64,000 bases of DNA from Emticicia sp. BO119. Lineage in GTDB: Bacteria; Bacteroidota; Bacteroidia; Cytophagales; Spirosomataceae. Under the pieces are notes generated by a model. That model was not told the origin of the DNA. It searched no databases and was given only the letters and a program-made list of their open reading frames with translations. Below are positions 34,837-48,956 of this stretch, piece after piece (position 1 is the stretch's first letter; each line of letters begins with the position of its first letter). The stretch covers positions 930,001-994,000 of the forward strand of contig NZ_JACETV010000001.1 of the NCBI RefSeq assembly GCF_013912375.1, in the 5' to 3' direction. The position numbers were made by a program, and so were the translations under genes.

Positions 34837-35541
34837 TCAAATCAAGGTTTCTTGTTTAAAACTATAGAGATAAGGTGCCTTATGCGCTTTGCCGGAATAT
34901 TGTTTGTCGTGGCGTTGCAGAATATTCAGACTTAGCATTTTGCGTTGAAAAGTGGTTCGGCGTAGCTTTTCTCCTAAGATTGCTTCATATACTTTCTGTA
35001 GGTCGTTCATAGTGAACAGGGGTGATAAAAGATTCACTCCAACTAATTTTCTTTCAAGATTATCTCGTAAGGTTTGCAAGGCTTTTTCTACTATTAGCTG
35101 GTGGTCTTGCATGAGTGCAGGGAGCTTATTCAGTGAATACCAATCGCACGAGTCAGATAAAGCATCAGGTGTGGGTACTACTTTCTCAAAGTTGATTAAG
35201 GCGTAATATGCTATTGAAATAAATCTATCAAGCATCCAGTGATTCTCAGGTACATCATGCCCATTGGCTTCTAATATGGTTTTCATGGCCTCTGGTTGAT
35301 ACCGGGATACATCTCCAAATGTATAAAACTGCTCCAGATAAATATTATCTAATCCGGTTCGTTCTTTCAGTCCTCTTCTTACAGCTGCATTGAGGTCTTC
35401 ATCAATCTTTACAAATCCACCGGGTAAGGCAAATAAACCAGTATTATGGTATTTCATAATCAGTATTTTAAGCTGGTTACCTGAGAATCCAAAAATCACA
35501 GAATCGTAAGCAATATGAGGTAAATATCTTTTCTCTTCCAC
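34837..35541 (-). CDS. NUDIX-domain transcriptional regulator (NrtR-like)
   Basis: 234 residues. An N-terminal NUDIX fold (about 1-140) is followed by a winged helix (LFTMNDLQKVYEAILGEKLR, TTFQRKMLSLNILQ), as in NrtR-type regulators. The NUDIX box is degenerate: in GGFVKIDEDLNAAVRRGLKE the R-E pair has become R-G, and the second Glu of the EE pair is Arg (KERTGL). It is therefore unlikely to hydrolyse anything and probably senses a sugar or nucleotide ligand. It is divergent from the carboxylesterase gene at 35663, with a dyad at 35619-35643 between them. It likely controls the esterase-transporter cluster. Confidence 0.88.
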   Translation of the reverse strand: MEEKRYLPHIAYDSVIFGFSGNQLKILIMKYHNTGLFALPGGFVKIDEDLNAAVRRGLKERTGLDNIYLEQFYTFGDVSRYQPEAMKTILEANGHDVPENHWMLDRFISIAYYALINFEKVVPTPDALSDSCDWYSLNKLPALMQDHQLIVEKALQTLRDNLERKLVGVNLLSPLFTMNDLQKVYEAILGEKLRRTTFQRKMLSLNILQRHDKQYSGKAHKAPYLYSFKQETLI

Positions 35542-35618
35542 TTCTCTGAGGTGTGTTTAAATCAGATACGAATATAAATTTTTCAAAAATAAGTATGATT
35601 ATTTCAAAAAACCAATTA

Positions 35619-35643
35619 TTATTGTCACGAATTGAGACAATAA
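35619..35643. promoter_or_regulatory. candidate operator for the NUDIX-type regulator
   Basis: TTATTGTC and GACAATAA (8 bp, perfect) lie around a 9-base spacer in the divergent promoter region, 20 bases before the esterase gene. No other strong dyad is present there. Confidence 0.6.
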
Positions 35644-35662
35644 CTAAATTTTATTAAAAAAA

Positions 35663-37300
35663 ATGAAGAAAATATGCTATTTGATTAGCCTGTTTTTTGC
35701 GTGTAACATGATGGCACAGGCACAGAATAATAATGCATTTGCCGTACAGACTACTATCGAAAACGGTATAATTGAAGGGAATTATGATACCAAGACAGGT
35801 ATTCAGACTTATTTCGGGATACCATTTGCCAAACCACCTGTGGGGAATTTAAGATGGAGAGCGCCCCAACCTGTTGAAAACTGGAAAGGAGTAAAAGAAA
35901 CTAAAAAATTTTCGGCAAGGCCAATGCAGACGGTTGTGTTTGGTGATATGAATTCGCGCTCGAACGGTGTAAGTGAAGATTGCCTTTATCTGAATGTCTG
36001 GACACCTGCCAAACGCAATACTAAAGATTTACCTGTATTGGTATATTTTTTTGGAGGTGGCTTTGTGGCAGGTGATGCCTCTGAACCACGTTATGATGGG
36101 GAAGCAATGGCAAAAAAAGGAATTGTTGCTGTGACAGTAAATTACCGTTTGAATATCTTCGGATTTTTTGCTCATCCTGAACTAAGCGCAGAAGCACCTT
36201 ATAAGGCATCTGGCAATTATGGGTTGTTAGACCAGGCTGCTGCCTTGAAATGGGTTCAGAAAAATATTGCTGCCTTTGGTGGAGACCCTAAAAAGGTAAC
36301 TATAGCCGGAGAATCTGCAGGTTCTATTTCAGTAAGTGCACAAATGGCTTCACCTTTATCAAGAAATTTAATTGCAGGTGCTATCGGTGAAAGCGGCGCA
36401 GGTATCAACCCAACACTTGCCCCTGTACCATTGGCAGAAGCAGAGAAAGTAGGGGCAGAGTTTGCAAAAAATGCTGGTTACCCATCGTTAGCAAAATTAA
36501 GAGCATTAAGCACCCGAGAGGTTTATGAGATTTATAATGAATCAAAAAGATTCGGTTTCCCTACTGTTATCGATGGCTATTTTTATCCTAAAACCATTCC
36601 GCAAATCTTTAATGCCAGAGAGCAGGCACAAGTACCGCTTCTTCTGGGTTGGAACTCGGCCGAAATTCCCGGGGCAGCCTTTATGTTCGGTCAGCCATAT
36701 AAAGATGATGCTTATATAGCCCGTGTGAAAAAAGAATATCCGAATGATTCAGAGGAAGTGCTGAAATTGTATCCGCATGGGTCAGAGAAAGAAATTGAAT
36801 TGTCTGCTACAGCTCTGGCTTCTGACCGTTTCATTGCCTACAGTACATGGAAATGGTTTGATCTGCACCGTAACAATAGTTCTCAGCCTGTTTACAGATA
36901 TTTATATAGCAAAGTGCGTCCGCCGTTGGTTGATCAGACATTGGCATCAGGTTTAGCAGGGGGTACTGTTAAAAAAGATGGTAGTACGCCTAAAGCTCCA
37001 GAACCTGTTGGCGCACCTCATGCCTGCGAGATTGAATACTGTATGGGTAATCTGCATTTGATTAAAGAATATGCCTGGACTGCCGATGACTACAAGGTAT
37101 CTGAAACTATGATGAACTATTTTGCTAATTTTATCAAAACCGGAAACCCGAATGGAGCTAAATTACCTGATTGGCCAGCGGCTAAAGCAGGTGATACAAC
37201 CCCACCGGTGATGATACTAAACGCAGAATCGAAAACAGAAAACGCCAAAGATGATGCACGTTATCTGTTTTTGGATAAGGCTTACGGAAATAATAAATAA
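35663..37300 (+). CDS. type B carboxylesterase/lipase family protein, exported
   Basis: 545 residues with an N-terminal signal peptide (ICYLISLFFACNMMAQAQ). It has the type B carboxylesterase sequence GIPFAKPPVGNLRWRAPQPV, the oxyanion region FFGGGFVAG, the nucleophile GESAG (Ser 218) and the catalytic His region PHACEIEYCMG. It probably hydrolyses esters in the periplasm or outside the cell. It is the first gene of a rightward group with a second, diverged carboxylesterase, an alpha/beta hydrolase, a CitMHS transporter and AtuA-type proteins, so the target ester is likely a carboxylic acid that CitMHS then imports. Confidence 0.92.
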   Translation: MKKICYLISLFFACNMMAQAQNNNAFAVQTTIENGIIEGNYDTKTGIQTYFGIPFAKPPVGNLRWRAPQPVENWKGVKETKKFSARPMQTVVFGDMNSRSNGVSEDCLYLNVWTPAKRNTKDLPVLVYFFGGGFVAGDASEPRYDGEAMAKKGIVAVTVNYRLNIFGFFAHPELSAEAPYKASGNYGLLDQAAALKWVQKNIAAFGGDPKKVTIAGESAGSISVSAQMASPLSRNLIAGAIGESGAGINPTLAPVPLAEAEKVGAEFAKNAGYPSLAKLRALSTREVYEIYNESKRFGFPTVIDGYFYPKTIPQIFNAREQAQVPLLLGWNSAEIPGAAFMFGQPYKDDAYIARVKKEYPNDSEEVLKLYPHGSEKEIELSATALASDRFIAYSTWKWFDLHRNNSSQPVYRYLYSKVRPPLVDQTLASGLAGGTVKKDGSTPKAPEPVGAPHACEIEYCMGNLHLIKEYAWTADDYKVSETMMNYFANFIKTGNPNGAKLPDWPAAKAGDTTPPVMILNAESKTENAKDDARYLFLDKAYGNNK

Positions 37301-37301
37301 A

Positions 37302-37404
37302 ATATCTTGAATTTTGAATCAGCGTGATTTTGCTGAATGCATTTCAGATTGGAATCTTGAATTGATTTGTCTCTCAAAATCAGGTTAACCGAAATTCAAA
37401 TATC
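37302..37404. repeat. imperfect inverted repeat after esterase 1
   Basis: ATATCTTGAATTTT near the left end and GAAATTCAAATAT near the right end form an imperfect dyad, with an inner TGATTTTG/CAAAATCA pair. It fills the gap between the two carboxylesterase genes. Similar gap dyads occur at 39048-39159 and 56871-57048. Confidence 0.4.
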
Positions 37405-37426
37405 ACTCAATATCTATCCTTAAACA

Positions 37427-39031
37427 ATGAAAAAAATTATCATTTCACTATTAGCATTCTACATTACAGCAGGTGCTTCAGCGCAATTACAAACCGGAGA
37501 AGACGTAGCTGTAACTAATACAGATGCCGGTAAAGTCAGAGGCTATGTACATAATAGCATTTACACTTATAAAGGTATCCCATATGCAGAAGCCAAACGT
37601 TTTGAGTCTCCACAAAAACCAAAACCCTGGTCTGGTGTTCGTAGCTCTTTGACTTATGGCCCTGTAGCTCCTTTAATGGTACCAACTACAACTGTTCAAG
37701 ACGAATCAGAATTCGTATTTCATCATGACTGGGGTTATACAAGTGAAGACTGTATGCGCCTTAATGTCTGGACTCCCGGCATTAATGATGGTAAAAAAAG
37801 ACCAGTATTATTCTGGATACACGGGGGTGGTTTTACAGCAGGTTCATCTCAGGAGCTACCCTCTTATGATGGTGAAAACCTGGCGAAGAAAGGCGATGTA
37901 GTGGTAGTATCTATCAATCACCGCCTGAATATCTTAGGCTATCTTGATTTATCAGCTTATGGAGATAAATACAAACAATCGGCAAACCTGAGTATAGTGG
38001 ATATGGTTGCGGCTCTGGAATGGGTAAAAGCGAATGCAGGCAATTTTGGTGGTGACCCTAATAACGTAACTATCTTTGGTCAATCAGGTGGTGGTGCTAA
38101 AGTGAATACCCTGATGGCTACACCGTCAGCCAAAGGATTGTTCCACAAAGCGGTTAATCAGAGTGGGGCATTCCGGACAACACTTTTAGAAAAATCAGAT
38201 ACACAGTTAGTTGGTGTAGAGGTATTGAAAGCCTTAAACATTGAGCCTGGCCAGATTGATAATATACAAAAAGTGGCTTATGCTGACCTGGTAGCAGCGG
38301 GAAATAAGGCTCTGAAAATAGTAGGTGATAAACTGAAAGCCGAAGGCAAAAACTTAGGTGCTTTTGGGGGGCTAAGCTGGGGACCAAGCCGTGATGGTGA
38401 GTTTTTACCTTATCAGTTTACTGACCCACAGGCAGTGGAATTATCTAAAAATATTCCACTATTGATTGGTACGGTTAAAAATGAATTTATGGCTTCATTA
38501 TTCAGCGGAATGTCAAATGCAAGTGCTGATAAGGTAAATGATTTTTTGAAAAACAGATATAAAGATAAAACTGATGCTTACATTGCCGCTGTTAAAAAAG
38601 CATTTCCAAATGATACAAAACCAACTGATTTGATGGATATTGACATGATGTTCCGTCCTGGTGCTGTTACACAAGCTAAAGCTAAATCTTCGGCTGGCGG
38701 AGCACCTGTTTATATGTATCTTTTCGCCTGGCAATCGCCTGTATTAGGAGGGAAGTACAAAGCTCTACACTGCATGGAAATACCTTTTGTATTCAATAAT
38801 ATTGCCCGTTGCGAGGAAATGACAGGTGGCGGCAAAGAGGCCCATGCCTTAGCCGATAAAATGAGTCAATCGTGGATAAACTTTGCCAAAACTGGCAACC
38901 CTAATGCAAATGGTCTACCGAAATGGGAGCCTTACACAGCTGAAAAGGGCGCAACCATGTTTTTTGATAATACAAGTACTATCCGCTACCACCATGATAA
39001 AGAATTATTAGAAGTAGTGGCGCAACCTTAA
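37427..39031 (+). CDS. carboxylesterase family protein 2, exported
   Basis: 534 residues with a signal peptide (MKKIIISLLAFYITAGASAQ). It is a type B carboxylesterase with SEDCMRLNVWTPG, FWIHGGGFTAGS, a nucleophile elbow that reads GQSGGG (Ser 220) instead of the usual GESAG, and HCMEIPFVFNN for the catalytic His. The Glu-to-Gln change at the elbow may alter chemistry or specificity. It is similar in build to the gene 5' of it but clearly diverged, so the two may attack different ester bonds of one substrate. It is followed by the PF20091-like hydrolase after 330 bases. Confidence 0.9.
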   Translation: MKKIIISLLAFYITAGASAQLQTGEDVAVTNTDAGKVRGYVHNSIYTYKGIPYAEAKRFESPQKPKPWSGVRSSLTYGPVAPLMVPTTTVQDESEFVFHHDWGYTSEDCMRLNVWTPGINDGKKRPVLFWIHGGGFTAGSSQELPSYDGENLAKKGDVVVVSINHRLNILGYLDLSAYGDKYKQSANLSIVDMVAALEWVKANAGNFGGDPNNVTIFGQSGGGAKVNTLMATPSAKGLFHKAVNQSGAFRTTLLEKSDTQLVGVEVLKALNIEPGQIDNIQKVAYADLVAAGNKALKIVGDKLKAEGKNLGAFGGLSWGPSRDGEFLPYQFTDPQAVELSKNIPLLIGTVKNEFMASLFSGMSNASADKVNDFLKNRYKDKTDAYIAAVKKAFPNDTKPTDLMDIDMMFRPGAVTQAKAKSSAGGAPVYMYLFAWQSPVLGGKYKALHCMEIPFVFNNIARCEEMTGGGKEAHALADKMSQSWINFAKTGNPNANGLPKWEPYTAEKGATMFFDNTSTIRYHHDKELLEVVAQP

Positions 39032-39358
39032 AAGTAATCTTCAAACTATGATTTACATGATTGAAGGATTTCGCTGATTGTTTGTAAAAGTGAATTGTAA
39101 TATTCAGCATTATCATTTTTGAGTAAAAATCTGATTAGTCATTTAGTCAGGTAAATCATTGTTCAAGATTAAAAACAAAACATATTTCATACGCTTGGTT
39201 GATTAAATATATTTGATGGCTGAACTTATCAGATTCCGTCAATTAATATTTTGGTTTCTTATTCTTCAGCAGATATATTCGCTGATTCATTCTTAAATAA
39301 CTCTCTGCTAATTTTTTGGTCAGAGAGTTATTTGTTACAATCAAACTTTCTTACCCCT
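39032..39358. other. intergenic region with imperfect dyad
   Basis: 327 bases between the second carboxylesterase and the large hydrolase. The only structure I see is the imperfect inverted repeat at 39048-39159. An open frame from 39251 exists, but its first 36 codons do not look coding and a signal peptide starts at 39359. Confidence 0.5.
39048..39159. repeat. imperfect inverted repeat before the large hydrolase gene
   Basis: ATGATTTAC on the left pairs with GTAAATCAT on the right, with a looser continuation inwards. The left arm also carries GATTTCGCTGATT, a word shared in type with the dyad at 56871-57048. Confidence 0.4.
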
Positions 39359-41329
39359 ATGAAAAAAGTACTTCCGATATTAGTATTCCTGTGTCATTGG
39401 GTAGTCTTTAGCGAAGCTAAGATTATCAGAATTGTGATTGATAAGACTGAACCTTATGCCAACGGTAAACTATTTGGTAAAACCGGAAAATATGAACGGT
39501 TAACAGGGAGAGCTTTCGGAGAGGTAAGTCCTACAGATATACACAATGCTATTATACAAGATATTGCATTAGCACCTCTCAACGAGAGAGGAATGGTAGC
39601 ATATGAAATGGAATTTGTACTCTTGAAACCTGTTGACCTAAGCAGGAGCAATCATCTTTTATTTTATAATGTCCCTAATCGTGGTAATATTTTTCCGGCA
39701 GATACTACACTTCTGAAAAGAGGATATATTTATCTGTGGGGAGGTTGGCAAGGAGATATTATTGGTGATAACAAACTGAAAATTAAAGTTCCGATCGCTA
39801 CTGAAAATGGTAAAGAGATTATCGGGAGACTCCACGCTGAACTGATTGTAAGTGAAAATACACCTACGCAAAATCTCAGTGGGGGTGCTTTTAGTGCACA
39901 ATTTCACAAAGCTTATGAAACTGTTTCGTTAGACAACGCAACTGCCATCTTGACCAGACGTATTCATGCTTCTGATGAACCTATCAGAATACCAGATTCG
40001 GACTGGGCTTTTGCTGATTGTAGTAAAGAAGTATTTCCGGGCAAGCCCAGTACCACTCAGGTTTCAGTAAAAGGTGGCTTTACCCCTGATTATATTTACG
40101 AATTAGATTATACAGCCAAAAATCCCCTAATTCTTGGGTTAGGATTTGCTGCAACCCGCGATATTGTGTCTTTTTTCAGATATACTCAACAAGCTGAAAA
40201 TCCATTAGCTAATCAAACTGAAGCAGCTATTGCGGTAGGCGTATCGCAATGTGGTAATTTTCTGCGCAGTTTCCTACATTTAGGTTTCAATGCAGATGAA
40301 GATAATAAACCTGTTTTTGAAGGGATGAATGTACATATAGGCCCAAGAAGAATTACGCTCAATGTTCGGTTCGGTCGTCCAGGTGGCGGAGGTATGCAAC
40401 ACGAAGAAGTGTTTTTTCCGGGTAATGAACCACCATTTACCTGGTCAAGTACTTTAGATCCTCTTTCAGAAATAGAGGGAGGTATTTTAGATGCCTGCCA
40501 GAGGCAGGGTTTTATGCCTAAAATTATGCATACCTTAAGTTCAACAGAATACTGGCAATCCCGTATGTCATTGCGTACTACTGATGTTTATGGTACTACA
40601 GATCTGAGGATACCTGAAAATGTAAGAATTTACTTATTTTCAAGTACTCAGCATACGCCGGCTTTTAACTCAAATATTAATAAACTAACAGGATTCCCAT
40701 CAAACCCGAACTCTTATATGGATTCATGGAGAGCCTTGCAGATAGCTTTAGAACAATGGGTTTTAACCGGGAAGATGCCTCCAAAAAGCATTTATCCTAC
40801 TATAGGTAGCAAAACCTTGGTTAGAGCGAATGAAATCGGTTGGCAAACTATGTTTAATGTGCCTTTCAGAGGTTTGGTGAACGAATTGCAGGTAAGGGAT
40901 TTCGGCCCACAATTTGACGAAAAAATGATGTCAGGTATCGTCGGCGAAAATCCGGTGGTGAAACATGATAAAAAATATACTGTATTAGTGCCAAAAGTAG
41001 ATAAAGATAATAACGAAACAGGTGGTTTAGCTTCTCTTACCTTACGAGTTCCTTTAGGGACTTATACTGGCTGGAGCTTACGCAAAGCTGGTTATGGAGA
41101 AGGCGATCTGGCGGTTTTAGAAGGTATGTATATACCTTTTGCCCGAACAAAAGCTGAGAGACTGGTAAATAGTGATACACGTTTATCTCTGGAGGAACGG
41201 TATCAATCAAATGAAAATTATGTAAAAAAGGTAAAGAAAGCAGCAAAGAGAATGGTGAAACAAAGGTTGATGTTGCCAGAAGATGCGGACCGGGAAATTA
41301 AGAAAGCAGAAAACTTGAAATTGTTTTAA
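39359..41329 (+). CDS. exported alpha/beta hydrolase domain protein (PF20091-like)
   Basis: 656 residues from ATG 39359, where a signal peptide (VLPILVFLCHWVVFSEA) begins. The middle has GVSQCGNFLRSFLHLGF (nucleophile Ser near 295) and the family string FEGMNVHIGPRR, NVRFGRPGGGGMQHEE and STEYWQS, ending DVYGTTDLRIPENVRIYLFSSTQH. These large exported hydrolases are common in Bacteroidetes and Proteobacteria beside esterases and carriers; most lack a known substrate. The stop TAA overlaps an ATG (TAATG) of a short ORF cut by a MITE-like repeat. It belongs to the esterase-transporter cluster. Confidence 0.88.
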   Translation: MKKVLPILVFLCHWVVFSEAKIIRIVIDKTEPYANGKLFGKTGKYERLTGRAFGEVSPTDIHNAIIQDIALAPLNERGMVAYEMEFVLLKPVDLSRSNHLLFYNVPNRGNIFPADTTLLKRGYIYLWGGWQGDIIGDNKLKIKVPIATENGKEIIGRLHAELIVSENTPTQNLSGGAFSAQFHKAYETVSLDNATAILTRRIHASDEPIRIPDSDWAFADCSKEVFPGKPSTTQVSVKGGFTPDYIYELDYTAKNPLILGLGFAATRDIVSFFRYTQQAENPLANQTEAAIAVGVSQCGNFLRSFLHLGFNADEDNKPVFEGMNVHIGPRRITLNVRFGRPGGGGMQHEEVFFPGNEPPFTWSSTLDPLSEIEGGILDACQRQGFMPKIMHTLSSTEYWQSRMSLRTTDVYGTTDLRIPENVRIYLFSSTQHTPAFNSNINKLTGFPSNPNSYMDSWRALQIALEQWVLTGKMPPKSIYPTIGSKTLVRANEIGWQTMFNVPFRGLVNELQVRDFGPQFDEKMMSGIVGENPVVKHDKKYTVLVPKVDKDNNETGGLASLTLRVPLGTYTGWSLRKAGYGEGDLAVLEGMYIPFARTKAERLVNSDTRLSLEERYQSNENYVKKVKKAAKRMVKQRLMLPEDADREIKKAENLKLF

Positions 41330-41460
41330 TGCCGGGAATTATTGAGTTGGATGACTGGCCGGATTTTGGCTTCGGCTTCACCACGGAGAACCCTTTTACA
41401 TTTTTGGGTGATACTGAGACAAAGACATTTTCAAAAGATACCTGCCACATTAAAGTCTAA
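41329..41460 (+). CDS. short ORF (43 codons) translationally coupled, cut at a MITE-like repeat
   Basis: The ATG overlaps the stop of the preceding hydrolase (TAATG). The peptide begins MPGIIELDDWPDFGFGF and includes ENPFTFLGDTETKTF; it looks like the start of a real protein rather than random sequence. It ends in TAA, whose last A is the first base of repeat copy C. No coding sequence continues beyond the repeat. It is probably the 5' remnant of a gene damaged by the repeat, or else a small coupled peptide. Confidence 0.4.
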   Translation: MPGIIELDDWPDFGFGFTTENPFTFLGDTETKTFSKDTCHIKV

Positions 41461-41534
41461 GAAACTGTTTGAGTTAATCTTATTGAATGAAAAATCACTC
41501 TTTTTATTTTCAAAATTTAACTTAAACAGTTTCT
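41460..41534 (+). repeat. 75-bp MITE-like repeat, copy C
   Basis: Terminal inverted repeats AGAAACTGTTTGAGTTAA and TTAACTTAAACAGTTTCT have one mismatch. The inside is the complement of copy A. The left end again contributes the last base of a TAA stop, here for the short ORF at 41329. Confidence 0.85.
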
Positions 41535-41574
41535 AAAAGAATAATTTTTATTAACCTAATTTTAAAACCTTACT

Positions 41575-42870
41575 ATGCTTGCCCTTTCAGGATTTGCAAC
41601 CATTATTGTTTTTTTATTTTTAATAATCACAAAAAGGCTGTCGGTTATCACTGCCTTAGTTATCATTCCTATTATGTTCGGACTGATTGCTGGTTTTAAT
41701 CCTAAGGAATTAGGCGAGATGATGCTAACGGGTATCAAACAAGTGGCGCCAACGGGTATTCTGTTAATGTTTGCGGTTTTATATTTTGCAACCATGCTTG
41801 ATGCAGGATTATTTGACCCTGTTATCGCTTTTATTATTCGCTCCGTAAAAGGTGACCCTATGAAAGTTATCATCGGAACGGCTATCCTGACTATGATTGT
41901 GCATTTAGATGGTGATGGTACTGCTACTTTTATGATAGTTCTTTCTGCGTTTCTGCCAATTTATAAACAATTAAAAATAAATCGACTGGTGTTGTCGGGG
42001 ATAGTAGCTCTTAGTGTGGGGCCATTGCATTTAGTTCCCTGGTCGGGTACTTCTGCAAGAGCTATTTCAACACTCAAATCTGATGCAGTACATATATTTA
42101 ATCCTAATATTCCGGCTATTTTTGGAGGTATTATCTGGGTTTTGTTTGTAGCGTATATTCTCGGTAAAAGAGAGCGTAAACGTTTGGGAGTTCTTGATTT
42201 TGAATATAATCATCAAAAAAACCTTACTGATACACAGAAAGAATTAAGAAGGCCCAAACTGATATGGGTTAATGCTATGATGACTATTGCATTGATTATT
42301 ACGCTGATGAAAGGGTGGGTTCCTGCGCCTGTTTTATTCGTAATTGCCAGTATGATTGCCTTGTTAGTGAACTATTTCAAATTATCTGACCAGCAAAAGG
42401 TATTGAAGAGTCATGGAACAAATATATTCATGGTATCGAGTATGATATTTGCCGCAGGTATTTTTTCAGGTATCCTTACGGGTTCTAAAATGATAGAGGC
42501 AATGGCAACTACTTTAGTTTCTTTTATACCTGAGCATCATGCAGGCTGGCTACCTACCCTGACAGCATTGACAAGTATGCCAGCAAGTATGCTTTTTACA
42601 CCTGATGCCTATTATTTTGGGGTAGTGCCTGTTCTGAGTCAAACTGCTACCCAATTTGGTATTGACCCATTAGAAATTGGTCGGGCAGCTTTGCTTGGAC
42701 AAATGACTGTGGGTTTTCCACTGAGCCCTTTAACTGCATCGACGTTTCTATTAATAGGTTTGTCGGAGGTTGAATTAGGCGAGCATCAGAAATTTATCTT
42801 TAAATGGGCGTGGGGCACTACGATTGTAATGACTATTGTTGCTTTATTGACGGGTTCATTGCATATTTAA
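41575..42870 (+). CDS. CitMHS family carboxylate:H+ (divalent metal) symporter
   Basis: 431 residues with about 11-12 membrane helices. Family landmarks are MIVHLDGDGTATFMIV near residue 105, GPLHLVPWSGTSARA near 140, FTPDAYYFGVVPVLSQTA and GFPLSPLTASTFLLIGLSEV. CitMHS carriers import citrate or related di- and tricarboxylates in complex with Mg2+ or Ca2+. Here it lies downstream of three exported ester hydrolases and 10 bases before an AtuA-type gene, so it probably takes up the freed acid. The exact acid is unknown. Confidence 0.93.
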   Translation: MLALSGFATIIVFLFLIITKRLSVITALVIIPIMFGLIAGFNPKELGEMMLTGIKQVAPTGILLMFAVLYFATMLDAGLFDPVIAFIIRSVKGDPMKVIIGTAILTMIVHLDGDGTATFMIVLSAFLPIYKQLKINRLVLSGIVALSVGPLHLVPWSGTSARAISTLKSDAVHIFNPNIPAIFGGIIWVLFVAYILGKRERKRLGVLDFEYNHQKNLTDTQKELRRPKLIWVNAMMTIALIITLMKGWVPAPVLFVIASMIALLVNYFKLSDQQKVLKSHGTNIFMVSSMIFAAGIFSGILTGSKMIEAMATTLVSFIPEHHAGWLPTLTALTSMPASMLFTPDAYYFGVVPVLSQTATQFGIDPLEIGRAALLGQMTVGFPLSPLTASTFLLIGLSEVELGEHQKFIFKWAWGTTIVMTIVALLTGSLHI

Positions 42871-42880
42871 ACAGGTAGCT

Positions 42881-44203
42881 ATGAAACAAAAAATAAGAAT
42901 AGGTTGTGGCGCAGGGTTCTCTGGCGATAGATTGGAGCCTGCTATTGTGCTTGCAGAAAAAGGGGGGCTTAATTATCTGGTGTTGGAATGTCTTGCGGAG
43001 CGCACCATCGCACTGGCACAAAAACGTAAACTTCAAGACCAATCCAAGGGGTATGACCCATTGCTTGAAAGGAGAATTGATAGTCTGTTGCCACTATTGA
43101 TTCAGAACAATATTTGCCTGATTACGAATATGGGTGCGGCCAATCCTATAGCTGGAGCAAAGAAAATCGTAGAAATAGCCCAAAAGAAAGGCTTATCAAT
43201 AAAAGTAGCAGCAGTTTATGGTGATGATGTTTTTGAGTATATCTCTCAAGATACATTGGCTATTGAAACAAGCGAGCCTTTAATACAAAGTGGAGAGTTA
43301 GTTTCTGCCAATGCTTATTTAGGGGTTGAAGGTATTCTATCAGCCTTGCAAGCAGACGCGCAGATTATAATCACAGGCCGTGTCGCCGACCCATCCTTAT
43401 TTCTTGCCCCTATGATACATGAATTTGGTTGGAAGACGGATAATTATGATTTAATGGGCAAAGGAACAGTAATAGGGCATTTATTGGAATGTGCCGGACA
43501 TATCACAGGTGGTTATTTTGCCGACCCTGTGAAAAAGCCAGTGGAGGACATGGATAAGTTGGGTCATCCCTTTGCGGATGTGTTTGAAGATGGATCGGCT
43601 ATTATCAGTAAAGTTGAAGGAACTGGTGGGGTGGTAAATTTACAAACTGCCAAAGAACAGTTGTTGTACGAAGTGATTAATCCGCACGAATACTATACAC
43701 CTGATGTAATCGCTGATTTTACGACAGTTTATCTCAAAGAAATAGGAGAGAACCAGGTACAGGTAACAGGAGGAACCGGTACACCCAAACCACAAGCCTA
43801 TAAAGTAAGCGTTGGCTACAAAGCCTTTTATTTAGGAGAAGGAGAAATTGCCTACGCTGGCGCATCAGCTTTAGAGCGAGCAAAATTAGCTGGAGAAATC
43901 ATTGGAAAAAGACTTAAAAGCCAGTTTCATGATTTAAGAATTGACTATATAGGCAGCAAAGCTATTCACAGAACTAATTTTGGTAACACTGCAATTCCTT
44001 ATGAAATACGATTAAGAGTGGCAGGAAAAGCCAGTAACCCAACTGATGCAGCCTTAGTAGGTGAAGAAGTAGAAGCCCTATACACCAACGGCCCGGCCGG
44101 AGGCGGAGGTGCAAGGAAATATGTAACAGAGGTAATGGGCATAGTATCAACTCTGATAGACAGACAAAATATCCAACCCCAAATACAAGTATTTGAATCT
44201 TAG
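42881..44203 (+). CDS. AtuA family protein (acyclic terpene utilisation, DUF1446)
   Basis: 440 residues. The opening RIGCGAGFSGDRLEPAIVLA and the motifs YLVLECLAERTIALAQ, TNMGAANPIAGA and ITGRVADPSLFLAPMIHEFG identify DUF1446 (PF07287). AtuA was named in citronellol degradation, but the family is broad and its chemistry is not settled. The gene starts 10 bases after the CitMHS gene, so it is in the same operon. A small AtuA-like protein follows after 46 bases; in many genomes the two are separate genes or fused domains. It likely acts on the imported acid or its CoA ester in the cytosol. Confidence 0.88.
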   Translation: MKQKIRIGCGAGFSGDRLEPAIVLAEKGGLNYLVLECLAERTIALAQKRKLQDQSKGYDPLLERRIDSLLPLLIQNNICLITNMGAANPIAGAKKIVEIAQKKGLSIKVAAVYGDDVFEYISQDTLAIETSEPLIQSGELVSANAYLGVEGILSALQADAQIIITGRVADPSLFLAPMIHEFGWKTDNYDLMGKGTVIGHLLECAGHITGGYFADPVKKPVEDMDKLGHPFADVFEDGSAIISKVEGTGGVVNLQTAKEQLLYEVINPHEYYTPDVIADFTTVYLKEIGENQVQVTGGTGTPKPQAYKVSVGYKAFYLGEGEIAYAGASALERAKLAGEIIGKRLKSQFHDLRIDYIGSKAIHRTNFGNTAIPYEIRLRVAGKASNPTDAALVGEEVEALYTNGPAGGGGARKYVTEVMGIVSTLIDRQNIQPQIQVFES

Positions 44204-44249
44204 TTAATCACCATTCACCAATTTGCTATTCATTATTCACAATTGAAAC

Positions 44250-44549
44250 ATGAAACTTTATGAAATAGCTCATAGCCGGGCAGGAGACAAAGGCAATACA
44301 CTTACACTTTCTCTGATTCCATATAAAGAATCTGATTACCCTATGCTTTGCAAAACTGTAACTGCTGAGACTGTTAAAAATCATCTATCCGCGATTGTAT
44401 CAGGTGAAATCATTCGGTATGAATTGCCGAATATTCATTCTCTACTTTTTGTTTGCCATAATGCGCTTTTAGGGGGTGTGACTACTTCACTAGCGATTGA
44501 TACGCATGGGAAGGCTTTGAGTTATGCATTGTTAGAGATGGAGGTCTGA
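44250..44549 (+). CDS. AtuA-like small protein
   Basis: 99 residues with the family opening KLYEIAHSRAGDKGNTLTLS and a central RYELPNIHSLLFVCHNALLGGV. This is the small partner domain that in other bacteria follows or is fused to AtuA. It is cytosolic and lies directly downstream of the AtuA gene. It probably forms a complex with AtuA. The following gene is convergent with a 3-base gap, so this ends the operon. Confidence 0.85.
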   Translation: MKLYEIAHSRAGDKGNTLTLSLIPYKESDYPMLCKTVTAETVKNHLSAIVSGEIIRYELPNIHSLLFVCHNALLGGVTTSLAIDTHGKALSYALLEMEV

Positions 44550-45844: not shown

Positions 45845-46414
45845 GTGAATACACAAGATAATCTATTAATGCTCCAGGTAAAGGCGGGCGACCTCGATAA
45901 AATGGGTCTGCTGTTTGAGCGGTATCACCGCCCTTTGTTTGGGTTTTTGTATCACATGACAGGTGATACCCAGACAAGTGAAGACCTGGTTCAGAATGTA
46001 TTTTATCGGATGTTGAAATATCGACACACTTTTACGGCTGAGGGGGAGTTTCATACCTGGATGTATCATTTAGCACGCAATGTGATGAATGATTCTTACA
46101 GACAGAACAAACACTCATCGCAGCATTATGCTTTAGAGAATTATGCAGAAAGGGTTGGGGGGGGCATAGCTGCCGATGAAGAATTAGAAAAAAGGCAGGA
46201 GACAGAAATGTTGCAACGCGCCATAGATAAGTTAAGTCCTGAACACAAAGAAGTATTGATAATGAGCAGGTATCAGGAATTAAAGTATGAAGAAATTGCA
46301 ACGATTCTGAATACTACCGAAGGTGCCATAAAAGTAAGAGTGCACCGTGCCATGAATGAATTAAAAAAACACTTTTTAAAAATTGAAAATGGAAGCAAAG
46401 CTCATGAATTGTGA
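45845..46414 (+). CDS. ECF-type RNA polymerase sigma factor
   Basis: 189 residues starting at GTG 45845. Region 2 is visible as LLFERYHRPLFGFLYHMTGD, then EDLVQNVFYRML and FHTWMYHLARNVMNDSYR. Region 4 is LSPEHKEVLIMSRYQELKYE and EIATILNTTEGAIKVRVHRA. This is an extracytoplasmic function sigma factor. The anti-sigma gene overlaps its end by about 26 bases and two DUF4097 genes follow, a typical Bacteroidetes envelope-related arrangement. It probably drives its own operon. Confidence 0.95.
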   Translation: MNTQDNLLMLQVKAGDLDKMGLLFERYHRPLFGFLYHMTGDTQTSEDLVQNVFYRMLKYRHTFTAEGEFHTWMYHLARNVMNDSYRQNKHSSQHYALENYAERVGGGIAADEELEKRQETEMLQRAIDKLSPEHKEVLIMSRYQELKYEEIATILNTTEGAIKVRVHRAMNELKKHFLKIENGSKAHEL

Positions 46415-47240
46415 ACACGCCAGTGAAATGATGGTAGATTGGTTGAATAACCAGATGCCTGCAGCTGAGAGGGCAGCTTTTGAAGTCCACCTGAACGAGT
46501 GCCCCGATTGCCAGAGAGAATTAAAGGCTACCCGCCAGCTTTGGGAGGTAATGGGGAATGTAACCATACCAAAACCAAGTGATAATCTTCCGATTCAGTT
46601 CTATACTATGCTTGAAGGTTTTAAGGGAACTGAAAATAAGAAAGTAGAGAAAACTGCTTTCTGGGATGACCTGAAATATAAAATAGAGTCGTTTTTTACA
46701 CCAAGATTATTATTGAGAGTATCTTATAGTATGTGTTTGTTATTGTTGGGCCTGGGTGGCGGTTATTTTTTAAGCAGGCAACAAACGCCTGACTATCAGG
46801 CGCAGATTAAGGAATTATCTAATCAGGTACAGGAGATGAATGAGAAGATGATGCTGACTTTATTGGAGAATGAGAACTCTTCTGCTACCGAACGTCTGCA
46901 AGCGGTAAGTTATACCAAAGAAATTGATAAGGTAGATGGAAAAGTTCTTGAAGCCCTCTTGAGCACACTAAATAATGATGAAAACGTAAATGTACGTTTA
47001 GTAACTCTCGAAGCACTGGCGCAACTGGCTGATAACCCGAGAGTAAGAGAAGGGCTGGTTCAATCTATTTTAAAACAGGATACCCCATTAGTACAGGCTG
47101 CCCTTGCCGATGTAATGGTTAAACTGGAAGAAAAACGCTCAATTAAACCTTTACAACGGCTATTGGAAAAAGACGATACAGACGTGATAGTGAAGACCAA
47201 AATCAAAGAGACCCTCAAGGCATTGTCTTACAGAGTATAA
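46389..47240 (+). CDS. anti-sigma factor: zinc-finger HC2 domain, one helix, HEAT-like C-terminus
   Basis: 283 residues from ATG 46389 (a TTG at 46383 and an ATG at 46404 are alternatives). An N-terminal zinc-binding anti-sigma domain has H34-x3-C38-x2-C41 (HLNECPDC) preceded by CEHASEMM. One transmembrane helix lies near 106-128 (LLLRVSYSMCLLLLGLGGGY), followed by a coiled-coil (QIKELSNQVQEMNEKMMLTL). The last 120 residues are HEAT-like helical repeats (VRLVTLEALAQLADNPRVRE; VQAALADVMVKLEEKRSIKP). It should hold the sigma factor at the membrane; the HEAT part is outside and may read the signal. Confidence 0.88.
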   Translation: MEAKLMNCEHASEMMVDWLNNQMPAAERAAFEVHLNECPDCQRELKATRQLWEVMGNVTIPKPSDNLPIQFYTMLEGFKGTENKKVEKTAFWDDLKYKIESFFTPRLLLRVSYSMCLLLLGLGGGYFLSRQQTPDYQAQIKELSNQVQEMNEKMMLTLLENENSSATERLQAVSYTKEIDKVDGKVLEALLSTLNNDENVNVRLVTLEALAQLADNPRVREGLVQSILKQDTPLVQAALADVMVKLEEKRSIKPLQRLLEKDDTDVIVKTKIKETLKALSYRV

Positions 47241-47256
47241 AATAAACATACAAAAT

Positions 47257-48123
47257 ATGAAACAGTTGTTAATCCTACTTTTAGCAGGAGTGGTGCTTGC
47301 TTGTGCCCCTGCTACGGCTCAGAAGCCACAATTTAAAGAGCATTTAAGTAAGCAATTTGACCTGAAAAAACCAGCCAGCCAAACTGTATTAGGCATCTAT
47401 AATGTAGATGGGTTTATTAAGGTAGAAAGCTATGCTGGCAACAAAGTGATGATAGAAATTGATAAAACGATTTCTGGTAAAACGCAGGATATTGTTGACG
47501 AAGGCAAAGCAGAGTTTAAGCTGGAATTTGCAGAAACAGGCGATAGTATTCTGGTGTACATTACTGAACCTTATGATACAAGGCCTGACCGAGAAAAAAG
47601 AAACCGTAACTGGAATCGCAGAATTGAGTATCGAAGTACCTTGAATTATACTGTAAAAGTACCAGCCGATATTAATCTTCATGTTTCAACTATCAACAAT
47701 GGTGATATTGAGGTAAAGGATGTAACGGGGGCGATTAAAGCTAATAATATCAATGGAGGTATTTCATTAAGCAATGCTAAAGGTGCTACCGAGGTGCATA
47801 CTATCAATGGCGATGTAACCATCAATTACCTGGCGAGTCCTCCTGAAAAATCATCTTATTATACCCTTAACGGTAATATCAGAGTAACTTATCCGGCGTC
47901 TTTTTCAGGAGACTTACAGTTTAAGAGTTTTAATGGGCAGTTCTTTACTGATTTCCCGGATACCCAATTATTAGCACCGGAAGTTACCAAAAATATAGAG
48001 CATAGAGGCGATGGCACTGTCTATAAGCTCGACAAAAAGACCTCTATCCGCATTGGCAACGGAGGCAGAAAATTCAAATTTGAAACGTTCAACGGAAACA
48101 TTTATATTAAAAAACAATCGTAA
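47257..48123 (+). CDS. DUF4097 beta-strand repeat protein 1
   Basis: 288 residues with a signal peptide (QLLILLLAGVVLACAPATAQ; a lipobox-like LACA is possible). The body is a series of short beta repeats with N-G turns: TINNGDIEVKDVTGAIKANN, INGGISLSNAKGATEVHT, INGDVTINY, LNGNIRVTYPASF. DUF4097 proteins form right-handed beta-solenoid-like folds; their job is unknown. It starts 16 bases after the anti-sigma gene and ends two bases before its paralogue, so it is in the sigma operon. A role as sensor or envelope target of the sigma factor is inferred from context. Confidence 0.87.
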   Translation: MKQLLILLLAGVVLACAPATAQKPQFKEHLSKQFDLKKPASQTVLGIYNVDGFIKVESYAGNKVMIEIDKTISGKTQDIVDEGKAEFKLEFAETGDSILVYITEPYDTRPDREKRNRNWNRRIEYRSTLNYTVKVPADINLHVSTINNGDIEVKDVTGAIKANNINGGISLSNAKGATEVHTINGDVTINYLASPPEKSSYYTLNGNIRVTYPASFSGDLQFKSFNGQFFTDFPDTQLLAPEVTKNIEHRGDGTVYKLDKKTSIRIGNGGRKFKFETFNGNIYIKKQS

Positions 48124-48125
48124 AA

Positions 48126-48956
48126 ATGAAAAATAGTAAAGCAATCATCGCAGTCTTAGTGCTAATGTCAATGAGTATAATCACACCTGTATTTGCTCAG
48201 AATGAAATCAAAGAGCAGTTAGTGGTACCATTAAGCGACCCTGCCAAATCGGGGACATTAAACGTAGGATTAATCAATGGGTCTATAAAGGTAACAGGAT
48301 ATGCCGGAAAAGAGGTTGTTATTGATGCTGAAACTACTCCTATAACCAATAAAAAGGAAAAAGTAGATGAGTCGGCAACCGGTATGAAACGCATTAACCC
48401 TCGGGGAGGTCTTGAATTATCTGCTGAAGAGAAAAATAACAAGGTAAATGTAAGCTCAAGTAGCCATCGCCAACCTGTTAATTTAGCAATCAAGGTACCA
48501 CAACAATTTTCCTTAAAAGTAAGTACTGTCAATAATGGAGATATTGTGATCGACAATGTAACTGGTGAATTGGAAATTACTAATGTAAATGGAGACATTA
48601 CTATGACCAATGTTGCAGGGTCAGCCGTTGCAAACACTGTAAATGGCATCATTAAGGCCAATTTCAAAACGGTAACTGATGCACCAATGGCGTTTACAAC
48701 CCTGAATGGAAATGTTGATGTCACTTTTCCGTCAAATGCTAAAATGAACGTTAAAGTAAAATCTGATCGTGGAGAAGTTTACAGCGATTTCGACATGGAT
48801 ATTGACAAATCTGCACCTAAAGGAGTTCGAAGCAACCAGAATGGCATGTACAAAGTAAGTATCGAAGAGTGGATACAAGGTAAAGTGAATGGTGGCGGTA
48901 GCGAAGTAATGATGAAAAATATGCACGGAAATATTTATATCCGCAAGGCTAAATAA
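48126..48956 (+). CDS. DUF4097 beta-strand repeat protein 2
   Basis: 276 residues, paralogue of the preceding gene, with its own signal peptide (KAIIAVLVLMSMSIITPVFA). The same beta repeats are seen (LINGSIKVTGYAGKEVVIDA; TVNNGDIVIDNVTGELEITN; VNGDITMTNVAGSAVANTVN). It lies two bases after the first and ends the operon before a strong hairpin terminator at 48993. Both end in GNIYI(R/K)K followed by a few residues, which suggests a shared terminal strand. Exported; no enzyme motif. Confidence 0.87.
   Translation: MKNSKAIIAVLVLMSMSIITPVFAQNEIKEQLVVPLSDPAKSGTLNVGLINGSIKVTGYAGKEVVIDAETTPITNKKEKVDESATGMKRINPRGGLELSAEEKNNKVNVSSSSHRQPVNLAIKVPQQFSLKVSTVNNGDIVIDNVTGELEITNVNGDITMTNVAGSAVANTVNGIIKANFKTVTDAPMAFTTLNGNVDVTFPSNAKMNVKVKSDRGEVYSDFDMDIDKSAPKGVRSNQNGMYKVSIEEWIQGKVNGGGSEVMMKNMHGNIYIRKAK

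Follow-up and report, generated by a model that had tools for sequence, protein, structure and literature searches.

The window analysed here is a stretch of 64,000 nucleotides from the 6.57 Mb genome of Emticicia sp. BO119 (contig NZ_JACETV010000001.1, positions 930001-994000), and its subject is a module at 34837-44549 in which hydrolase genes and a citrate-type transporter gene adjoin two genes named for AtuA. AtuA (DUF1446) proteins are found in many phyla and have no agreed activity. Open reading frames (ORFs) and searches of Pfam and NCBIfam place a regulator on the minus strand and six other genes on the plus strand. A preliminary description had named this set (a divergent degenerate NUDIX regulator, hydrolases, CitMHS and an AtuA pair), and by Pfam/NCBIfam all of it is present. 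The parts are as follows, with signal-peptide-like N-termini judged by eye.

34837..35541, minus strand: NudR, an NrtR/AraR-type regulator with a degenerate NUDIX domain and an NrtR winged helix (PF21906 63 bits, PF00293 34 bits, PF19368 27 bits)
35619..35643, no strand assigned: candidate operator TTATTGTCACGAATTGAGACAATAA in the gap that separates NudR from the first esterase, a palindrome whose arms are kept in relatives
35663..37300, plus strand: type-B carboxylesterase 1, GESAG motif, signal-peptide-like N-terminus (PF00135 377 bits)
37427..39031, plus strand: type-B carboxylesterase 2, GQSGG motif, signal-peptide-like N-terminus (PF00135 326 bits)
39359..41329, plus strand: alpha/beta hydrolase PF20091 (Abhydrolase_10), signal-peptide-like N-terminus (107 bits, cut-off 23)
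41575..42870, plus strand: citrate-type symporter CitMHS, which would import the free acid (TIGR00784 528 bits, cut-off 259.7)
42881..44203, plus strand: AtuA, proposed lyase large subunit, CmlA-like (PF07287 497.7 bits, gathering score 22.8)
44250..44549, plus strand: AtuA-ferredoxin (AtuAfd), 99 residues, proposed lyase small subunit with a CmlB-like fold (PF23544 123 bits)

CitMHS and AtuA are separated by 10 bp, and the nearest named relatives of the window AtuA, at 88 and 87% identity, are from Emticicia. For the PF20091 gene, the ATG at 39359 is preferred over the upstream start of the ORF list at 39251. A 43-residue ORF at 41329-41460 overlaps the stop of this gene and is probably due to chance; no counterpart was seen before CitMHS in two relatives (L031, L032; loci are cited by such numbers below).

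The conserved core and its changing hydrolases

Which of these genes belong together? Across 150 of the 222 genomes of the family, the 62 with CitMHS (E<=1e-100) are exactly the 62 with AtuA (E<=0.001), zero genomes being discordant, and because the two sets coincide the module is not a product of chance. CitMHS was located in 57 of 63 mapped loci (of 67; L048-L051 were mapped separately), nearly always immediately 5' of AtuA or one ORF away, while AtuAfd lies immediately 3' of AtuA in 56. The core of the module is CitMHS-AtuA-AtuAfd, and by record titles it is also present in Saprospiraceae, Ferruginibacter, Algoriphagus and Clostridia.

The hydrolases around the core vary, and include PF00135, PF00756, PF20091, BD-FAE/Abhydrolase_3 and sometimes a sulfatase; close homologues of the carboxylesterase at 37427..39031 stand beside the core in other genera too. 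We assembled 76 Bacteroidota module loci including the window, six short ones of which (L034, L036, L115, L122, L272, L279) lie outside the hydrolase count. With sulfatases excluded and several loci of one species retained, at least one hydrolase was present in 57 of the remaining 70 loci and in 3 of 38 random 17.3-kb stretches of module-carrying genomes (mean 2.13 versus 0.08; Fisher p 3e-14), a control count that may be low because the hydrolase profiles were made from module-linked proteins. The controls are 38 of 40 fetched stretches, L243 being left out as overlapping a module region and L262 as not random; L230, which was kept, begins about 11 kb from the module of its genome. Since the hydrolase families change and the step stays, the hydrolases appear to share an ester-cleavage function.

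These counts are consistent with the order of events proposed in the preliminary description, in which esters would be cleaved outside, the acid imported by CitMHS and then processed by AtuA. Its expectation of co-conservation holds for CitMHS and AtuA but not for the exact hydrolase set or the regulator, neither of which is universal (a NudR homologue occurs in 8 of the 70 module loci versus 1 of the 38 controls). The aldo-keto reductase gene after the module is on the opposite strand, and a close homologue lies near the core in four loci only.

The AtuA pair and citramalate lyase

What reaction might the AtuA pair catalyze? A phmmer search of the PDB with the window AtuA returned one relevant solved sequence, 9erq/9evf (E 0.0014), recorded as an AtuA family protein, citramalate lyase subunit A (CmlA); chain B of these records is a DUF4387 protein, subunit B (CmlB), and the title of 9evf describes a citramalate lyase-ADP-pyruvate complex. 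A profile of 39 AtuA proteins matches 9erq_A with an E value of 1e-7, and hhalign relates the window AtuA to a CmlA homologue at 97.5%. The AlphaFold2 model of AtuA (predicted local distance difference test score, pLDDT, 93.2) has a single PDB match at E<=0.001, namely 9evf_A (E 6.4e-25, template-modelling (TM) scores 0.72/0.70), and the single match of the predicted AtuAfd model (pLDDT 85.5) at the same threshold is 9evf_B (E 1.9e-4, TM 0.72/0.68). Two independent structure searches thus arrive at the two chains of one complex, which points to a two-subunit C-C lyase.

The two systems are further alike in subunit size (456 and 105 residues in CmlAB, 440 and 99 in the window) and in the stretches GRxxDP, LEC and LYExxxP, which the window AtuA carries near residues 166, 202 and 263 and CmlA has in common with it. 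The large subunits are homologous by profile and fold, and the small subunits are similar in fold. Unlike CmlAB, to which identity in the structural alignments is 15-16%, the window pair has a PF23544 small subunit in place of DUF4387 and comes with CitMHS and esterases; its substrate is probably different. The PF07287 and PF23544 domains are fused into one chain in L107 and L090, so AtuA and AtuAfd are probably two subunits of one enzyme that would form a complex. The preliminary description had spoken of an AtuA pair without clear chemistry: both proteins are there, but they are better regarded as one two-subunit enzyme, and the matches to both chains of a citramalate lyase of known structure, together with neighbourhoods that in some loci indicate acetoacetate, suggest what it does. 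On the strength of the homology and the predicted folds, AtuA/AtuAfd is very probably a C-C lyase acting on a tertiary hydroxy acid.

Two other known systems invite comparison. The AtuA of acyclic terpene utilization in Pseudomonas and Thauera bears the same Pfam family name and, in an excerpt of PMC4847356, is tentatively given a lyase role on a similar tertiary hydroxy diacid. According to the same excerpt, that protein is a single chain of 615 residues in a CoA pathway with geranyl-CoA carboxylase (GCC), unlike the window module with its two chains, free-acid importer and no carboxylase. A terpene-acid pathway of the citronellol type is unlikely here, since none of the 60 module loci searched has genes like those for methylcrotonyl-CoA carboxylase (MCC) or GCC. 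HMG-CoA lyase (LiuE/MvaB type) would share with the window enzyme the proposed product, acetoacetate, and some relatives of the window AtuA stand in MCC-like clusters that are expected to hold HMG-CoA lyase. In contrast to that enzyme, no CoA step is proposed for the window AtuA, which matches PF07287 only in Pfam and zero NCBIfam models and does not belong to the known HMG-CoA lyase protein family.

Among the open-access literature matches listed, there is no description of this module or of the 9erq/9evf structure, and none of the open-access papers searched has AtuA and CitMHS together. As far as these matches show, a CmlAB-like lyase in an ester-uptake setting has not been described. If the assignment is correct, the DUF1446 gene reported in an excerpt of PMC4682846 would be a candidate to explain what becomes of citramalate in enterobacteria, a fate not yet accounted for.

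Acetoacetate as probable product, 3-hydroxy-3-methylglutarate as probable substrate, and the alternatives

The genes next to the core in some relatives bear on the product. An acetoacetate-CoA ligase is the gene right after AtuAfd in L120 and L149 (710 and 777 bits, cut-off 520.9); a SCOT-like CoA-transferase takes this place in L279 (474 bits to SCOT 3dlx), and another stands at +2, behind an MFS gene, in L134. In Clostridia, L048 has a pair of 3-oxoacid CoA-transferase genes beyond its sigma54 regulator, as seen from the core. Additional clostridial loci were included after the hypothesis was formed, as its test, and one of them, L296, has a single run of sigma54 regulator-CitMHS-AtuA-AtuAfd-CoA-transferase A-CoA-transferase B-thiolase (NCBIfam: CoA-transferase A 243 versus 128.5 bits, B 311 versus 243.6, thiolase TIGR01930 482 versus 240.6). 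Neither acetoacetate-CoA ligase nor the CoA-transferases were found in any of the 38 random control stretches, and the genome of the window encodes an acetoacetate-CoA ligase elsewhere (734 bits). Two unrelated acetoacetate-activating routes in nearly the same position are a strong hint of acetoacetate, though one taken from few loci, and the lyase product is probably acetoacetate. CoA-transferases of L056, L271 and L273 lie within aromatic pob/pca-like runs (by eye) and were not counted; those of three rumen genomes (L302-L304) belong to a lysine-fermentation-like run (by eye) far from AtuA and have no bearing on the question.

From a tertiary hydroxy acid, a cut of the citramalate-lyase type yields acetate together with an oxo acid; if the latter is acetoacetate, the substrate would be 3-hydroxy-3-methylglutarate (HMG). 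CitMHS transporters are known for metal-citrate transport, and HMG is the citrate backbone with the central carboxylate replaced by methyl; it would fit this importer because it shares that backbone. From gene content and homology we therefore favor HMG as the substrate, with some reserve, and the earlier guess of a beta-hydroxy or branched acid went in the right direction. HMG esters of flavonoids occur in plants, according to an excerpt of PMC11044239.

How would such a module operate? The esterases, predicted to be exported, would act outside the inner membrane to free a tertiary beta-hydroxy acid from its ester, and CitMHS would bring the freed acid in. AtuA/AtuAfd, as a two-subunit lyase of the CmlAB type, would cleave the free acid; one product would be acetate and the other an oxo acid, most likely acetoacetate, so that the acid is most likely HMG, the citrate analogue. 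An acetoacetate-CoA ligase or a 3-oxoacid CoA-transferase would next activate the acetoacetate, thiolase would split it to acetyl-CoA, and the NUDIX regulator would probably repress the operon from the palindrome at 35619-35643. The gene content, its co-conservation, the homology to CmlA, the fold match to CmlB and the acetoacetate-activating neighbors in some relatives are computed results; for the whole reading, an operon of exported esterases, CitMHS and an AtuA/AtuAfd HMG lyase, we put the probability at roughly 0.57. There is about an even chance that this CoA-independent HMG lyase is a new activity which, with the esterases and the importer, would give environmental and gut bacteria an undescribed route for growth on plant HMG esters. 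It would then explain bacterial use of the HMG groups on plant flavonoids.

A sister group of AtuA proteins lends support to this substrate. The tree separates clade I, the module type (24 rows, 94/96), from clade II (29 rows, 98/100); its root serves for drawing only, and the CmlA homologue and L058 have very long branches. L106 was left out of alignment A1 because of a stop codon. The tree includes ten of the 17 clade I clostridial loci; the remaining seven were assigned to clade I by 51-52% identity to the window AtuA. In clade II, a degradative HMG-CoA reductase comes right after AtuAfd in L212 and L300 (463 and 476 bits, cut-off 260), followed by TctBA-like genes (by eye), the larger of which in L212 matches no NCBIfam model. 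A CaiB-type CoA-transferase follows AtuAfd in L213, L214 and L301, the L301 protein scoring below the cut-offs of such models, and L213 and L301 also have CitMHS (34 and 37% identity). In the 35-40% AtuA branch (54 loci, L057-L110), an MCC-like carboxyltransferase, as in the L107 cluster, is present in 15 loci and a carboxylase or hydratase gene of the MCC-like set in 22.

HMG-CoA lyase was sought in the genomes of 26 of these 54 loci and of three clostridial ones, mostly metagenome-assembled genomes (MAGs) whose completeness is not stated. It exceeds the cut-off in two of the 29, a third falls just short (232.6 versus 246 bits), and 26 have nothing above 64.4 bits; 11 of the 13 genomes with carboxylase genes in the AtuA locus are among these 26. 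Such absences weigh little, because most of the genomes are MAGs and because a genuine lyase can score under the cut-off, as a 158-bit relative in the genome of the window illustrates. They nonetheless suggest that clade II AtuA replaces HMG-CoA lyase in MCC-like clusters. If this and the HMG reading hold, the AtuA family would be made up of C-C lyases that cut tertiary hydroxy acids, with citramalate as the substrate of CmlAB, HMG as that of the window module and HMG-CoA-type thioesters as those of clade II. An apparent gap would be filled in leucine-type carboxylase clusters, whose genomes mostly have no recognizable HMG-CoA lyase, and the wider family would be an unrecognized alternative to that enzyme in many phyla.

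Several observations weigh against an HMG lyase fed by ester cleavage. The only solved relative is named for citramalate, and the CitMHS family for citrate. Comparison of AtuAfd (PF23544) with a single DUF4387 sequence by hhalign gave no similarity, and in Pfam AtuAfd matches PF23544 only; we dropped the idea that it is a remote DUF4387 by sequence, and the small-subunit match therefore comes from the fold search. Among the 76 Bacteroidota loci, acetoacetate genes follow the pair at +1 in three and at +2 in one, just 4 in all; among the 17 clade I clostridial loci they stand beside the core in just 2, including one of the five clade I loci in the test batch (L296; not L295, L297, L298 or L299). 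The L134 CoA-transferase matches only the general 3-oxoacid CoA-transferase family of NCBIfam, and the SCOT label is soft because SCOT is likewise the best PDB match (347 bits) for the CoA-transferase in the aromatic run of L271. Thirteen of the 70 loci have no counted hydrolase, in the clostridial cores hydrolase-like genes are isolated where they occur at all (L295, L297, by eye), and 4 of the 17 clade I clostridial loci (L206, L210, L297, L299) have no CitMHS beside the pair. Carboxylase or hydratase genes of the kind sought are absent from 32 of the 54 clade II loci, and the HMG-CoA lyase relative in the genome of the window stays, at 158 bits, under the 246-bit cut-off.

Could the pair instead be a citramalate or citrate lyase, CitMHS importing the ester-freed acid and the products being acetate and pyruvate or oxaloacetate? 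The name of the solved relatives and the passing of the citrate symporter model by CitMHS agree with this, as does L055:5784-11341, a locus with both genuine CmlA and CmlB genes (E 5.5e-120 and 9.3e-25 to 9erq) and an AtuA gene, separated by tricarboxylate-type receptor genes (by eye). The specificity of CmlA need not carry over, however, because the window AtuA is only 16% identical to CmlA over the structural alignment and the CmlA homologue sits apart on its very long branch. Pyruvate or oxaloacetate would moreover leave the neighboring acetoacetate-CoA ligase, CoA-transferase plus thiolase and HMG-CoA reductase genes unexplained, and an aerobe with aconitase has no need of citrate lyase; we regard this explanation as unlikely. 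A somewhat smaller chance falls to action on a CoA thioester, HMG-CoA, in the window module too, where an unlinked CoA-transferase or ligase would activate the acid. The clade II neighbors (CaiB-type CoA-transferase, HMG-CoA reductase, MCC-like carboxylases) are all CoA enzymes, and the excerpt of PMC4847356 tentatively assigns AtuA as a 3-hydroxy-3-isohexenylglutaryl-CoA lyase. Yet the clade I core has no acid-activating gene, the activating genes that adjoin it are of the acetoacetate type, and the solved relative is, by its title, a lyase of the free acid.

The loci with phenolic-type neighbors raise another alternative, in which the acid, either citrate-like or a benzyl-malate, is esterified with a hydroxycinnamate, hydroxybenzoate or benzyl group as part of a phenolic conjugate. 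The esterases would free both halves; products of cou/pob/pca-like genes would then take care of the phenol, and CitMHS and the lyase would handle the acid. Genes resembling those for hydroxycinnamate use (aromatic-acid-MFS-like, crotonase, acyl-CoA-synthetase, SDR, amidohydrolase) lie upstream of the core in L124, L125 and L128, only the crotonase being over its NCBIfam cut-off; L043 and L044 are the same contigs as L124 and L125, so such loci number three. PobA/Pca-like genes of the hydroxybenzoate/protocatechuate type adjoin the core in L056, L271 and L273 (by eye), and the genome of the window has at L288:3536-11029 a protocatechuate/beta-ketoadipate-like run of PcaH, PcaG, PcaB, PcaD, PobA, PcaIJ and PcaF (by eye). 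These neighbors fit exported esterases acting on acylated phenolic glycosides. Each such cluster occurs, though, in at most 7 of the 63 mapped loci, clostridial modules with the same core show no aromatic genes by eye, and the acetoacetate genes would again be unexplained. A phenolic conjugate, which we consider the least probable of the three alternatives, is compatible with HMG as one acyl group among several.

Regulator, candidate operator and further loci

The Nudix box of NudR, GGFVKIDEDLNAAVRRGLKERTGL, departs at two catalytic glutamates from the signature GX5EX7REUXEEXGU, as quoted in an excerpt of PMC4666351. NudR resembles BtAraR/NrtR of Bacteroidota, described there, in combining a degenerate NUDIX domain with a winged helix and in standing beside presumed target catabolic genes; the NudR operator, by comparison, is a candidate recognized from sequence alone. 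The 25-bp palindrome has identical arms and the same place in L031, L032 and L118, and L216 has a variant. No copy was seen in L148 or L276, and L146 is too short to judge. Its location between the regulator and the first esterase offers indirect support for the co-regulation that the preliminary description had expected, but the regulator is not a constant part of the module. Apart from the window palindrome, one other site in the genome matches the arms exactly. With up to two mismatches, the pattern finds 14 forward sites genome-wide versus 12 for a reversed control, and we do not claim a wider regulon. In most mapped clostridial modules a sigma54-activator-like gene adjoins the core instead (by eye); the one in L296 is below its model cut-off.

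A second NUDIX-type regulator, divergent from a carboxylesterase, lies elsewhere in the genome of the window (L287:3-10295, families by eye), with a copy of the operator containing two mismatches at L287:9446-9470. This locus continues with esterase-like genes and a GMC-oxidoreductase-like gene; no CitMHS or AtuA was seen there by eye.

Clostridial loci show further variation. Near some of the four loci in which CitMHS is not beside the pair are SSF-like, TRAP-like and ABC-like transporter genes (by eye), so in Clostridia other importers may take the place of CitMHS. At L297:655-2388 the gene immediately 3' of AtuAfd encodes a CocE/NonD-like hydrolase (by eye), perhaps for cytoplasmic ester cleavage. 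At L208:2859-7566, genes resembling those for 2-oxoacid:ferredoxin oxidoreductase, phosphotransbutyrylase and butyrate kinase (by eye) are convergent with CitMHS-AtuA-AtuAfd. Downstream of the module in the window itself, at 45845-48956, genes for a sigma-factor-like protein, an anti-sigma-like protein and two exported adhesin-like proteins follow in series (by eye).

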